Assembly (NCBI GenBank): GCA_017480325.1
Contig: JAFVAY010000012.1
Coordinates: forward strand, 62,001-126,000
DNA: 64,000 nucleotides
Direction of reading: 5' to 3'
Origin: Clostridiales bacterium
Lineage (GTDB): Bacteria > Bacillota > Clostridia > Saccharofermentanales > Saccharofermentanaceae
Positions 4,742 through 62,391 of the stretch are shown here, one piece after another. Position 1 is the first letter of the stretch; each line of letters begins with the position of its first letter. Both the position numbers and the translations under genes were made by a program. Below the pieces are notes generated by a model. It worked only from the letters and a program-made list of their open reading frames with translations, searched no databases and was not told the origin of the DNA.

Positions 4742-4764
4742 TCTTAAGCACATAAGAATACTGT

Positions 4765-4885
4765 GTCTATGTTATTGTCTATGTAATTTAAAATAACAGA
4801 CATAAACATAGACTTAGAGAGCTTTTTACCTTTAAAGTCTATGATCCTGTCTATGTTTTTCTTTTACATAGACATAAACATAGAA
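4765..4885. repeat. Inverted-word array D (word GTCTATGT)
   Basis: Two 49-bp units, 4765-4813 and 4837-4885. Each is built as word, 4 nt, word, 9 nt, inverse word, 4 nt, inverse word. Words: GTCTATGT at 4765, 4777 and 4849; GTCTATGA at 4837; ACATAGAC at 4806 and 4866; ACATAGAA at 4878; a degenerate TAACAGAC at 4794. Each word lies 29 bp from its inverse partner. The array fills most of the intergenic space between the 4684 and 4948 genes. No ORF explains it. Confidence 0.75.
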
Positions 4886-4947
4886 ATCAAAATGTTTGTG
4901 TTCAGAAACTTCAGCAAATAATCGGCAATACATCTTAATAATTCTTT

Positions 4948-11994: not shown

Positions 11995-12107
11995 CACTGA
12001 CAAAAACACTGACTATTCTTCAAAATTGTCAGTAATCTTGTCAATATAAGCCTCATACTGACAAAATCGGTGGCAAATCTTAAAAACTGTCAGTGAATCA
12101 CTCAGCG
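11995..12107. repeat. Inverted-word array F (word CACTGACA)
   Basis: Two 52-bp units, 11995-12046 and 12056-12107. Each is word, 4 nt, word, 12 nt, inverse word, 4 nt, inverse word. Unit 1: CACTGACA 11995, CACTGACT 12007, TGTCAGTA 12027, TGTCAATA 12039. Unit 2: TACTGACA 12056, degenerate CGGTGGCA 12068, TGTCAGTG 12088, degenerate ACTCAGCG 12100. Unit starts are 61 bp apart, as in array E. Same plan as D and E but with a loop 3 nt longer and a different word. Confidence 0.7.
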
Positions 12108-30114: not shown

Positions 30115-30309
30115 CTATACCAAGTCATAAAGCTATGCCAGTTTGGTATAGAAACAAATCACTTTGACTATACCATACTGATATTAGAAAGTTTATTGGT
30201 ATAGAATTTTCTGAAAACTCTATACCAAAAATCGGCTGTACATCATGATGGTATAGAAATGTTGTTATTTTTCTATACCAACCATTAAACGATAACAAAA
30301 ATGGTATAG
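30115..30309. repeat. Inverted-word array A (word CTATACCA, four units)
   Basis: Eight 8-bp words alternate in orientation. CTATACCA occurs at 30115, 30168, 30220 and 30273; TGGTATAG at 30144, 30197, 30249 and 30302. All eight are exact. Gaps are 21, 16, 21, 15, 21, 16 and 21 nt; the 21-nt and 15-16-nt gap sequences are not conserved. Period 52-53 bp. Words are usually flanked by TTT and AAA. Lies between a membrane gene and a decayed gene. Not CRISPR-like in repeat length or orientation. Confidence 0.88.
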
Positions 30310-32266: not shown

Positions 32267-32633
32267 TCTCTAAGCTCTCCAACTGTTTTCCCAGATTCTC
32301 AATAAACTCAGTCATATCTTCGCTTATTCGTTCGTACTCAAAGCTATGAACATTATGCCCGCAGTCAAGCTGTATAAGTGTTCCGTCAGAGGAAGCATCA
32401 GCCATAGTCTGCATGCTGTTAACCCACAGCTCATCGCCGCTGTTATCGACAGAAAGATACAGTATCATAGGCACATCAGGCAGAGGGGCAGAATTAAGTT
32501 CGTCATTTACTGCGAAAAGCACTTTTGCTTCCTGCTCTCTTGCCACAGTATCGTTGCAGATAATATGCATTGTTATCTCGGTAAGTATCTGTCTTTCTTC
32601 CGTTGACAGAGTACCTGAATAATCCAGACTCAC
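32250..32633 (-). pseudogene. N-terminally truncated alpha/beta hydrolase (tandem duplicate fragment)
   Basis: 127 residues aligning with the end of the 31292 protein: DVPMILYLSVDNSGDELW against DIPIILFISDGTGGTG, and LDCGHNVHSFEYERISEDM against LNCGHYVHDFESERISADM. The nucleophile Ser half is absent, so it cannot be an active hydrolase. Its GTG start overlaps the TetR stop, and it runs 17 bp into the next gene, so it may still be translated. Confidence 0.7.
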
Positions 32634-33298
32634 TTGCCGGTTCCTCCCAACATAATGATCAACGACTCGGCAAGGCAGGAGAACATGTCCTCCGGGTTGT
32701 ATCTGTTTTTATAATTCTCGGATCCGAAGCTCTCTGACAGAAGATAATCAGTCTGGATTCCTCGGGCGGAAGCACTCATGAATTGCATTATGTTATCAAG
32801 TGATAAAGTCGGCTGAAGTGATTCTTTCTCGATGATTTCCTTAAGATACTCATTCATTAAGGCTTCGAGCGATATAATCGGATTTATTGCTTTCTTGTTG
32901 AGCCTCTCGCTGATCTTAAGTACTCTCTCGGGATCACTGACAGCGAAAGTATCCGCGTAAGCTGCTATCTTGAGGGTATCGGTGCCAGCACTGACTATCA
33001 TATCCGATAACATCTTGCATGTTTGCCGTATTACAGCCTTCCATTCCTCTTCTTCATGAGTTAATCGGAGAAAACGTTCATTCAGATTATTACTTTGGTT
33101 AATTCTTAATAATATATCCAGCAGCACTTCATCCAGATTCTGATAGTATCTGTATATCACGCCATGCGAGAACCCGGTCTTCTCGATAATGTCTTTCATC
33201 TCAACAGATGTAAGAGGCTTAGACCTGCAGACCTCGTAAGCCGCATCAATTATCGCTTTTTTCTTATTCTCGATGTAATCTTCCGTAACTTTCGGCAT
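32630..33298 (-). CDS. TetR/AcrR family regulator
   Basis: 222 residues. HTH VEMKDIIEKTGFSHGVIYRYY at about residues 32-52. Leads the operon with the truncated and full hydrolases. A 35-bp inverted repeat upstream (33305-33339) is its probable operator. Divergent from a second TetR gene at 33693, with array C between them. Confidence 0.9.
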   Translation of the reverse strand: MPKVTEDYIENKKKAIIDAAYEVCRSKPLTSVEMKDIIEKTGFSHGVIYRYYQNLDEVLLDILLRINQSNNLNERFLRLTHEEEEWKAVIRQTCKMLSDMIVSAGTDTLKIAAYADTFAVSDPERVLKISERLNKKAINPIISLEALMNEYLKEIIEKESLQPTLSLDNIMQFMSASARGIQTDYLLSESFGSENYKNRYNPEDMFSCLAESLIIMLGGTGK

Positions 33299-33304
33299 AA
33301 ATCA

Positions 33305-33339
33305 CCTCTAACAAAATGACTCCGTGTCATTTTATTAGA
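33305..33339. promoter_or_regulatory. Long TetR operator candidate
   Basis: Arms CTCTAACAAAATGAC and GTCATTTTATTAGAG (15 bp, one mismatch) around TCCGT. It begins 7 bp upstream of the TetR start at 33298. Confidence 0.75.
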
Positions 33340-33384
33340 GTAAATATATCTTGTCAATAAAACCATTAGCAAGTCTGGGAACCA

Positions 33385-33576
33385 TATTACTCATTTCCTC
33401 GAAAACATTTTTTAATAATAAATTTTGATCAATATTATTATTTTATTTGTTGAGAATAAAAATTAGTAATACTTTTGCTCGATTTTTATTATTCAAAACA
33501 GTTTTCATGGAATTGAATAATATTTTCGACCTAAAAAGTATTATTTAAATAATCATAAACAGATTTTCGTAATATA
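33385..33576. repeat. Inverted-word array C (word TATTATTC, four units)
   Basis: Same plan as arrays A and B with another word. TATTACTC 33385, TAATAATA 33413, TATTATTT 33436, TAGTAATA 33464, TATTATTC 33487, GAATAATA 33515, TATTATTT 33539 and a weak GTAATATA 33569. Gaps are 20, 15, 20, 15, 20, 16 and 22 nt. The word is A+T-only apart from the end base and the region is AT-rich, so chance matches are a concern; the spacing agreement with A and B is what supports it. Confidence 0.5.
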
Positions 33577-33619
33577 CTTTATTTGCTTCACAGTGATTTA
33601 CGTATGCTAATTATGGTTA

Positions 33620-33648
33620 TTGACAACTAACTACGATAATTATATATT
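33620..33648 (+). promoter_or_regulatory. SigA-type promoter of the TetR-hydrolase-ABC operon
   Basis: TTGACA (33620-33625), 17 bp, TATATT (33643-33648). Just downstream lie inverted TTGTGA (33653) and TCACAA (33676), a possible site for the encoded TetR. Confidence 0.65.
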
Positions 33649-33692
33649 CTCTTTGTGAACATTTTCAAAGAATGGTCACAAGGAGACAATAA

Positions 33693-34286
33693 ATGCCAAA
33701 GCGAGTTTTCAAAGAGGACGAGAAAGAGCAGCTGAAGCTTACGATGCTTGAGGCGGGCTTTCCCCTTCTTAAGGAATACGGGATGACCCACACCACGATA
33801 TCCAAGATTACTGAAGCTGCCGGCATCGCCAAAGGAACATTCTACCACTTCTGGAAGAACAAGGAAGAATACATGGCGGATCTTATCCTTTACCACAGGC
33901 AGAAAATGATTCCCGTACTGATAAGTGAAGATGTCTTATCCGGTAAAAGAAAACTCGGTGAAGAGGATGCGCGTAAGTATCTTCACGCAGTTGTTGACGA
34001 GGAGATAAGCATCTATCCTCACCTGACACTCGAGGACGAGGCGAAGCTTCTTAAGAATACGGATACTTTCGAGCCGGATATCGAGAAAGAAAGTGCTATA
34101 ACCGGAGGACTTCTTTCTCACCTTAACAACGTGCGTAAGGACGTGAATCTGCCGCTTGTCGCCAACATGTCCAAGATTCTTGTCCTGACATCTGAGTCGC
34201 GGGCTGAACTTCACGAAGCTGTCTATAAAGAAACCATCGATACGCTGGTTGAAACGATATTAAATCTTATTTTCGAGAGAGGGTAA
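33693..34286 (+). CDS. TetR/AcrR family regulator
   Basis: 197 residues. HTH TTISKITEAAGIAKGTFYHFW at about residues 29-49. AAGGAG precedes the ATG. First gene of an operon with a BAAT-like hydrolase (4-nt gap), an ABC ATPase and an FtsX-type permease, so it likely senses a ligand handled by that transporter or enzyme. Confidence 0.9.
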   Translation: MPKRVFKEDEKEQLKLTMLEAGFPLLKEYGMTHTTISKITEAAGIAKGTFYHFWKNKEEYMADLILYHRQKMIPVLISEDVLSGKRKLGEEDARKYLHAVVDEEISIYPHLTLEDEAKLLKNTDTFEPDIEKESAITGGLLSHLNNVRKDVNLPLVANMSKILVLTSESRAELHEAVYKETIDTLVETILNLIFERG

Positions 34287-51209: not shown

Positions 51210-51353
51210 TTATTTATAAAACCCTTCCCTTACTTAAAGGGTCCGGAATAGCATCGCGTCAGCGTCACCTTTTAACAACATTATGTTTCTCATAAGTCAC
51301 TAAATTCAGGAAAAACACTGTCAGATACAAATCCGATCATGGCAAACAAGGAT

Positions 51354-51463
51354 GTATGCATTTGAGTATGTATTTTCAAAAAATCCATACACAACGCCAT
51401 AAAAATGCCCATATGTATGACCTTATGTATGTATTTTATGATTACGAATACCAAAACACATAC
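51354..51463. repeat. Inverted-word array E (word GTATGTAT)
   Basis: Two 49-bp units, 51354-51402 and 51415-51463, with the same plan as array D: word, 4, word, 9, inverse, 4, inverse. GTATGCAT 51354, GTATGTAT 51366, ATCCATAC 51383, degenerate CGCCATAA 51395; GTATGACC 51415, GTATGTAT 51427, ACGAATAC 51444, ACACATAC 51456. Unit starts are 61 bp apart, as in F. The convergent gap 51210-51597 holds no gene. Confidence 0.6.
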
Positions 51464-51597
51464 ACACATATCCCAAAATCTTGAAATTGCTTCATTATAT
51501 GTAAATATCATTCGCGTAATCCTCGGTAGTTTTAATTATTTACCGATATTGGCGTTTTTTAAACTGTGCAATGCTTTTTGGAAAATGCGTATAACAA

Positions 51598-53381: not shown

Positions 53382-53575
53382 CTATACCATTCCTGTTTTT
53401 TTACGTGAATGGTATAGAAAAACAACAACTTTTCTATACCAACATGATGAATGTCATTAATTTGGTATAGGTTTTTCAGATATTTCTATACCAACAAACT
53501 TTCAAATTACATTATGGTATAGGAATAACGGCTTGTTTCTATACCAAATATGGAAACTCCTATGATTTGGTATAA
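53382..53575. repeat. Inverted-word array B (word CTATACCA, four units)
   Basis: Same words and layout as array A, 23 kb away. CTATACCA at 53382, 53434, 53486 and 53539; TGGTATAG at 53410, 53463 and 53515, and TGGTATAA at 53568. Gaps are 20, 16, 21, 15, 21, 16 and 21 nt against 21, 16, 21, 15, 21, 16 and 21 in A. Gap sequences are unrelated to those of A. It occupies the middle of the 486-bp divergent gap 53215-53700. Confidence 0.88.
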
Positions 53576-62276: not shown

Positions 62277-62391
62277 GAGGGTCTTTTTGTGTGTTCACTT
62301 TTTAAAAAAGGACACACCTAAAGCCCATTTACCCCCTCTATGGTCTTTTACTGTGTCCTTTTTTTACTTAGGAACACACTAGAGGACCCTC
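62277..62391. repeat. 115-bp imperfect palindrome / long hairpin G
   Basis: Symmetric blocks: GAGGGTC 62277, GTGTGTTC 62289, GGACACAC 62310, then CTGTGTCC 62351, GAACACAC 62372, GACCCTC 62385. Gaps are 5, 13, 33, 13 and 5 nt, exactly mirrored. An inner AAAAAAGGACACA / TGTGTCCTTTTTT stem adds to it. Lies between ohrR and the broken methyltransferase, 5 bp from the latter's stop. It may act as a terminator, or be a relative of arrays A-F. Confidence 0.75.

Follow-up and report, generated by a model that had tools for sequence, protein, structure and literature searches.

A phased word array between divergent TetR genes as a possible gene-less member of a nuclease-linked repeat family in a clostridial genus

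In the REP/RAYT system, as outlined in the accessible part of its description, there is one enzyme gene per word type, gene-less copies lie dispersed in intergenic regions, enzyme and repeat co-evolve, the enzyme evolves fast and the words are private to the species (PMC2817692); REPINs, whose account was likewise available only in part, belong to the same comparison (PMC3116915). TIGR arrays, according to the portion of the report at hand, have repeats that are constant within a locus and variable between loci, and they lie upstream or downstream of their gene (PMC12045711). Here we describe arrays of short words in the genomes of one clostridial genus, some gene-less and some adjoining a gene for a nuclease-like protein. 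Among them is array C, located between two TetR genes in the window, i.e. the whole stretch of 64,000 nucleotides that was analyzed.

The system closest in logic to these arrays is REP/BIME-RAYT, since the features named in the available text, a gene per word, dispersed copies without a gene and co-evolution (PMC2817692), recur here; co-evolution of enzyme and repeat was met in one orthologous pair of loci, L246 and L248. The REP enzyme is a Y1 tyrosine transposase, whereas the enzyme found here is PD-(D/E)XK-like, and REPs are hairpins, whereas the present arrays consist of 8-11-bp words at phased spacing and do not flank the gene on both sides. A hairpin-forming palindromic unit with a conserved head was not met: single words alternate with their complements, and complementarity of the gaps is at chance. 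The Y1 transposase family PF01797 had no match in the six genomes searched (the own genome, G000, and G017, G065, G030, G012 and G005), in a search that gave matches in 5 of 14 control genomes. Membership of REP/RAYT is ruled out by this absence from the six genomes tested.

In the look of the array TIGR-Tas is the closest, with alternating short repeats and variable spacers (PMC12045711). As far as the available part of that report goes, it differs by two distinct repeats, 9-nt spacers and a Nop-domain protein; the present arrays have one word and its reverse complement and mostly longer spacers, the gaps of single-word arrays being near 16 nt. Two distinct repeats with 9-nt spacers were thus not met, nor was a Nop domain, no Pfam family coming near cut-off in ten proteins. 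The short gene-less intergenic copies with inverted ends recall MITEs, as does the absence of one array (D, below) from the matching site of sister species. Here, however, words are found over the full length of a copy and are still conserved once the spacers have diverged, and no transposase family was identified; no target-site duplication was noted at the arrays by eye. The candidate defence protein PDC-S68 and T7 endonuclease I-like nucleases have a related C-terminal nuclease domain (the match to T7 endonuclease I being non-significant), but PDC-S68 profiles exceed 1200 positions and the present proteins are stand-alone. To our knowledge, a word array is not part of either family. In the searchable open-licence literature, which leaves most subscription papers outside and was represented by titles and the starts of abstracts, no description of an array-nuclease pairing was found. 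Since the literature was limited in this way, novelty is rated only against what could be searched.

Array C lies in the 394-bp gap (33299-33692) between the two divergent TetR genes, together with a palindrome and two TTGACA promoter-like sites. The features are:

32630-33298, minus strand: TetR-family regulator of 222 aa (PF00440 TetR_N above cut-off, E 5.7e-7)
33306-33340, no strand: 35-bp palindrome, 15 pairs counting G-T, 5-nt centre, overlapping a -10 box
33329-33357, minus strand: promoter-like TTGACA-17-TAAAAT of the leftward TetR gene, 11/12 consensus bases
33385-33574, no strand: array C, eight TATTAYTCAA words in alternating orientation, steps 26,25,26,25,26,26,26 (about 26 bp), 71/80 to the consensus of its homologue C'
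33620-33648, plus strand: promoter-like TTGACA-17-TATATT of the rightward TetR gene, 11/12 consensus bases
33693-34286, plus strand: TetR-family regulator of 197 aa (PF00440 TetR_N above cut-off, E 9.8e-11)

The original prediction, made from the sequence alone, had named a divergent TetR pair across 394 bp, a 15-bp-arm palindrome and a TTGACA promoter, and all were recovered, the promoter as two sites, one per strand. Promoter-like sites in the gap numbered 8, with 3.3 expected from shuffles. The further claim of two TetR-hydrolase operons is correct in outline only, because the hydrolase in the row of the leftward TetR gene falls below the Pfam cut-off (Abhydrolase_1, 22.8 against 25.8 bits) and a 127-aa ORF without Pfam match is interposed there; the row of the rightward TetR gene continues with a BAAT_C hydrolase, an ABC ATPase and an FtsX permease. 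The palindrome overlaps the -10 box of the minus-strand promoter-like site and is the probable operator of the leftward TetR gene, a role that is inferred.

The eight sites of array C (33385, 33411, 33436, 33462, 33487, 33513, 33539 and 33565) were placed with a spacing template taken from C', which is independent of it; their score is 68/80 against the consensus of the eight and 71/80 against TATTAYTCAA. The permutation test that had been suggested as a possible refutation was run as 1000 dinucleotide shuffles of the whole gap, where the maxima were 56 and 48, respectively, and as 1000 shuffles of the AT-rich core alone (33375-33584), where they were 56 and 47. No shuffle reached array C in either set, and array C is real by this test. 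The very high AT content of the segment, and the other registers that a free word search in it locks onto, would be expected of a chance pattern; the two sets of shuffles and the occurrence of the same steps in C' refute chance, which we regard as practically excluded.

The homologue C' (L131:10084-10273), located elsewhere in the genome and cleaner than array C, came to light through a match of 84% between 44 bp of the gap and G000:C17:15154-15197. It was needed to place array C, since a free word search there does not find the TATTAYTCAA register but locks onto AATAATAA-like words with irregular steps. Of the steps originally proposed for array C (28,23,28,23,28,24,30), the first six are those of a seven-site chain of an 8-base word in C' (28,23,28,23,28,24); that register was not recovered in array C by free search. 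Arrays C and C' have 63/80 word bases and 51/110 spacer bases in common. When C' DNA was used as a probe on 85 genomes of the genus, strong matches occurred only in its own genome; none of the five weak, short matches outside was an array by the detector, and one of them (L142) shares its locus with a cut nuclease gene.

A tie between array C and the TetR genes, as expected of a TetR operator, is unsupported. Intergenic arrays occur in divergent, convergent and co-directional gaps, C' lies between convergent, unrelated genes, and three orthologues of the second TetR gene with their 5' region available (L285, L286 and L287) have no array there by eye, a fourth (L284) being cut too near its start to judge. 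A dyad TTGTGA...TCACAA (33655-33687) stands before the second TetR gene, with similar dyads by eye before L285-L287, and is a likely operator of this regulator. A different dyad, GTTAG[CT]N4[AG]CTAAC, has ten matches in the window (2708, 4724, 13744, 13803, 22986, 31262, 45276, 53650, 57185 and 62876), several of them near promoters; it also occurs before the TetR orthologues of L285 and L286 and looks like a common operator.

Two further arrays in the window, both built on the word CTATACCA, were located by word search:

30115-30309, no strand: array A, eight exact words in alternating orientation, gene-less
53382-53575, no strand: array B, eight words (one mismatch), reversed relative to A, gene-less

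The same word is found in arrays D (contig C16) and E (contig C17), and exact matches to the word pair occur in 12 places of the whole genome, all within A, B, D and E. Arrays A, B (reversed) and D align over their length, without visible likeness outside the outer words. Their words are 63-64/64 identical (64/64 for A-D), while identity in equal-length spacers is 66/110 for A-D, 72/110 for A-B and 94/130 for D-B; words and spacer lengths are conserved while spacer sequence drifts. Two sister species have the same tRNA and the same neighbours, which we take to be DUF4214-like, at the site of D, and no array; the flanks at this site, as at the rplL site described below, are too diverged to show ends or a target duplication. 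Array E lies 3 bp behind the gene L132:8165-8971 and is decayed (65/80), while the gene-less A, B and D are intact (72-74/80). With array A DNA as a probe on the 85 genomes, strong matches were again confined to its own genome, the single weak match elsewhere was not an array by the detector, and plasmids and phages gave no match. A scan of the collection for the A word pair gave at least 115 stretches, and in the 115 examined with the chain detector the sole chain was a run of N.

The remaining arrays of the window are mostly of a doublet type:

4764-4886, no strand: doublet array ++--++--, word TGTCTATG, 59/64, second copy at L159
11996-12107, no strand: doublet array, word ACTGACAA, last doublet weak, 54/64, found by inverted self-similarity
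51351-51466, no strand: doublet array ++--++--, word TATGTATG, 55/64, second copy in L130 (86% over 144 bp)
62277-62391, no strand: +-+- array with a TGTGTCCT-like word, single copy seen, inverted self-similarity 69.6% over 115 bp

Two of these doublet types have a second copy within 421 kb of the own genome, and no second copy of the array at 11996 was found among the own-genome loci examined (421 kb). The word of the array at 4764 is also that of the array beside the nuclease gene L159:65-760.

The presence of arrays across the genus was analyzed with two detectors. A word-agnostic detector of alternating words, which does not target doublets, found the 12-word array F (L169:18686) in the congener G017; the G017 array word is GTKYRMACAA, with eight copies in G017 by BLAST and none in the 84 other genomes. 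Conservation among seven copies (L202 being excluded) is 87% for word bases and 55% for spacer bases, and 221/231 spacer pairs are of equal length. Matches made of N runs (L079, L170 and L171) were dropped. This detector had no match on local shuffles (1.08 Mb) and added nothing from 300 kb of the own genome or from 20 stretches of other genomes; a set of 20 from G065 and G030 gave only a chain in L282, judged by eye to be chance. The second detector, which looks for local inverted similarity, marked 17 regions within 90 loci (1.83 Mb), a lower count because it misses B, D, E, C' and 51351-51466. Shuffles of 110 loci (2.23 Mb) gave no region, nor did 400 kb of three genomes from another family of the order; 60 kb more of these three genomes gave one match (L228), which is probably not an array. 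The idea in the original prediction that such arrays form a family tolerating a complete change of word is supported, as array C is real and the same layout occurs with CTATACCA in the same genome and with GTKYRMACAA in a congener.

Some copies of the G017 array are partly alike in the left or right flank (L198 with L199, L198 with L200), and the shared left flank resembles the 5' region of the nuclease gene L166 and a comEA-like promoter. A reverse transcriptase gene (PF00078, L183:17579-18826) lies beside a G017 array, next to a gene that by eye is RsfS-like.

One protein family, absent from the original prediction, recurs among the neighbours of the arrays, with 10 members in 3661 ORFs by profile search. 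Residues S163, E166, D196-F197, E211 and G214 are invariant in 10/10 members, so that the conserved acidic motif residues expected of a PD-(D/E)XK enzyme are present. A significant match to a known nuclease family was also obtained: the C-terminus of PDC-S68 matches 10/10 proteins (E 6.9e-6 to 1.9e-28), and the best match to a phage resolvase family is that of the C-terminal part of the L159 protein to PHROG 9019 (E 4.7e-7). Pfam (E limits up to 1 for six proteins and up to 0.01 for four) and NCBIfam gave no match near cut-off for the ten proteins. Profiles of solved structures gave no significant match, T7 endonuclease I (E 0.33-0.51) ranking behind the coiled-coil PACSIN1 (0.035). The proteins, stand-alone and of about 250-300 aa, appear to form an undescribed PD-(D/E)XK nuclease-like family with a variable N-terminal half and a nuclease-type C-terminal domain, fold and activity being inferred from residue conservation and profile matches.

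The family is present in 84/85 genomes of the genus (E up to 1e-5), with 1 to 15 matches each: 11 in this genome, 4 in G017 and none in G077. G077 is the only genome without a match, and the 60 kb examined from it showed no array. Two further family genes (L246 and L248) were met by chance in rplL loci, and a thirteenth (L142) is cut, its readable side having no array. Three scans of viral contigs showed no nuclease relative. By tblastn, one member matched 11 plasmid records in the C-terminal domain only; the plasmid proteins mostly bear AAA or helicase annotations. It also matched three gut phage records without annotation, the top one with 61% coverage at 32.7%.

TTGTCG words spaced every 10 bp were seen at L183:16677-16711, L279:14428-14452, L167:7383-7417, L273:8086-8110 and L281:485-519, upstream of a comEA-like gene (SLBB, HHH), a ComEC-like gene (PF03772), a DUF5702 gene and two nuclease-family genes. 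They also stand before an ORF that by eye is ParA-like in the order-level relative L227. These repeats are possibly a competence box.

The linkage between arrays and nuclease genes was evaluated for 12 family genes, i.e. the 10 from the ORF search and the two met by chance. A clear word array adjoins 9 of them (L132, L163, L169, L176, L273, L159, L281, L246 and L248); L219 has a weaker +-+- arrangement and L166 no clear array. Beside L160 (L160:15101-16244) there is a long hairpin and four direct TTGTACCACTTGG-like words, two on each side of the gene, possibly a further array type. A flank score of at least 29 was reached by 9/12 family genes and by 15/700 other genes sampled from 1028 (counts only, without a p-value), the nine including L160 instead of L132. 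The arrays and the family genes are thus physically linked. Arrays adjoin their gene on a single side, and for this reason paired transposon ends are not seen.

Judged from sequence, array layout follows the protein group, the groups being drawn by identity only. L160, L163 and L169 are 34-52% identical to L132, and in 3/4 of this group single alternating words form pairs 25-27 bp apart. E and L169 have a period of 51-53 bp; that of L163 (eight words, 77/80) is 73-74 bp, longer by about 21 bp or two helical turns. In the other group, 18-20% identical to L132, doublet words lie 11-12 bp apart with periods near 50, 61-64 or 72; in L273 the two half-words, 12 bp apart, differ from each other, and the doublet pattern is missing from L166 and L219. 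Lengths fixed by the helix combined with free spacer sequence point to a protein on double-stranded DNA.

The rplL locus allowed array and gene to be compared between orthologous sites. The interval from rplL to the tRNA gene is 1093 bp in G098 (L246) and 1104 bp in G071 (L248), both with an array and a nuclease gene, and 115-217 bp in the eight other loci measured, from other species, where both are absent; five more rplL loci were left out, as the script did not recognize the end of rplL. Both arrays are ++--++-- with steps 11,16-17,11,11-12,11,16-17,11, and their words are GTCGCTGAAAA in L246 and GTAGATAAAA in L248. These differ at position 3 (C in 7/8 sites of L246, A in 8/8 of L248), position 5 (C in 8/8, A in 8/8) and position 7 (G in 6/8, A in 7/8). 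The two proteins are identical in 173/251 positions, 70/120 in the first 120 columns and 103/131 after, the N-terminal half being the more diverged part. Array and gene occur jointly in an interval that is short elsewhere, and word and protein both differ, which indicates that the two behave as one unit and changed together. The covariation of word and protein rests on this one locus pair. The tolerance of word change is further borne out here, three word positions differing between two species while layout and neighbouring gene are kept.

Neither the window nor the sampled parts of its contig contain a member of the nuclease family. When up to three mismatches are allowed, the C word pair has eight places in the whole genome, three in C, four in C' and one at C4:63319-63354. 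This only further place lies about 150 bp before a nuclease match (C4:63512-64279), in a genome of which about 0.8% is within 400 bp of the 11 nuclease-family genes. It carries three mismatches, and since the reversed control pattern also has one place, it is supportive and not proof. No partner gene could be assigned to the G017 word.

The best explanation, to which we give a probability of roughly 0.55, is that array C is a gene-less representative of elements with two parts, a phased word array and a nuclease-like protein that reads its own word. Such an array would usually comprise eight short words spaced in phase with the helix, and the nuclease-like protein would be stand-alone. The protein would read its private word as dimers through the variable N-terminal half, in one protein group on words paired at a distance of about 26 bp (2.5 turns) and in the other on 11-12 bp doublets, and would stack cooperatively along the array. 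Its nuclease domain may cut or nick at the array, by which arrays would be copied, moved or maintained in trans, and the arrays of the window would be non-autonomous copies or remnants that lost the gene. Binding, cutting, spread by cutting, mobility of the arrays and any host benefit are inferred. Against this reading stand the decay of E beside its gene while the gene-less A, B and D are intact, and the one-sided position of the arrays. The same holds for the family genes without a clear array (L166), with a weak one (L219), with a hairpin (L160) or with none on the readable side (L142). The missing partner of the G017 word, the three mismatches and control match of the C4 place, and the lack of a significant solved-structure match also count against it.

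Three other readings of the arrays have to be weighed. Helical phasing is typical of cooperative regulators, and some arrays lie just upstream of genes (63 bp for A, 79 bp for the array at 4764, 23 bp for L163), so that they could be multi-site operators through which the nuclease-like protein or another regulator controls its own gene and its neighbours, e.g. the TetR pair, the nuclease domain being secondary. This is unlikely, given that C', E, L169:18686 and the array at 51351 with its copy lie between convergent genes, that some directly follow a stop codon (3 bp for E, 5 bp for L176) and that three TetR orthologues have no array before them by eye. The layout also recalls TIGR arrays, whose repeats, in the part of the report available, are constant within and variable between loci and lie on either side of the gene (PMC12045711). 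The arrays could then be transcribed and act as RNA, folded or processed, either as guides or as an antitoxin-like RNA working with the nuclease in a TIGR-Tas or ToxIN-like manner.

Neighbouring words are slightly more alike across one gap type (p 0.04), which counts for an RNA, but the other neighbour-word test gave p 0.28 and self-complementarity of the gaps is at chance (p 0.66 and 0.24); with one of four p-values at 0.04, these tests lend no clear support to a hairpin or RNA. Rfam had no match at gathering score in the window, Pfam no Nop domain in ten proteins, and helix-length spacing is a property of double strands, all of which makes a role as RNA quite improbable. The resolvase-like similarity, the free variation of words between arrays and the long hairpin beside L160 would agree with recognition of structure, in which inverted words extrude cruciforms that a T7-endonuclease-I-like enzyme resolves, any self-complementary word sufficing. 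Direct doublets 11-12 bp apart and constant spacing would then be unnecessary, word variants in G017 are not matched between neighbours, and the words track the protein in L246/L248; we consider this reading more doubtful still. For the two-part element at the scale of the genus, we think it rather probable that these are undescribed selfish or domesticated elements. In them the helically phased array, in most cases of eight private words, would co-evolve with a stand-alone PD-(D/E)XK-type nuclease, with concerted replacement of the word at nearly all sites, persistence of gene-less arrays in trans and several word-protein pairs per genome.

Should the protein read the word, every genome would contain several natural pairs of a DNA-reading protein and an eight-fold target, with different pairs in other species. 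The family would then be a dataset for DNA recognition and for the joint change of a multi-site target and its reader, of which L246/L248, with three changed positions, is one worked example. The TTGTCG element common to two family genes and to the comEA-like and ComEC-like genes makes a link to DNA uptake testable. If true, the arrays would represent a nuclease-linked kind of dispersed bacterial repeat, beside REP/RAYT, and a natural experiment in the turnover of DNA recognition.
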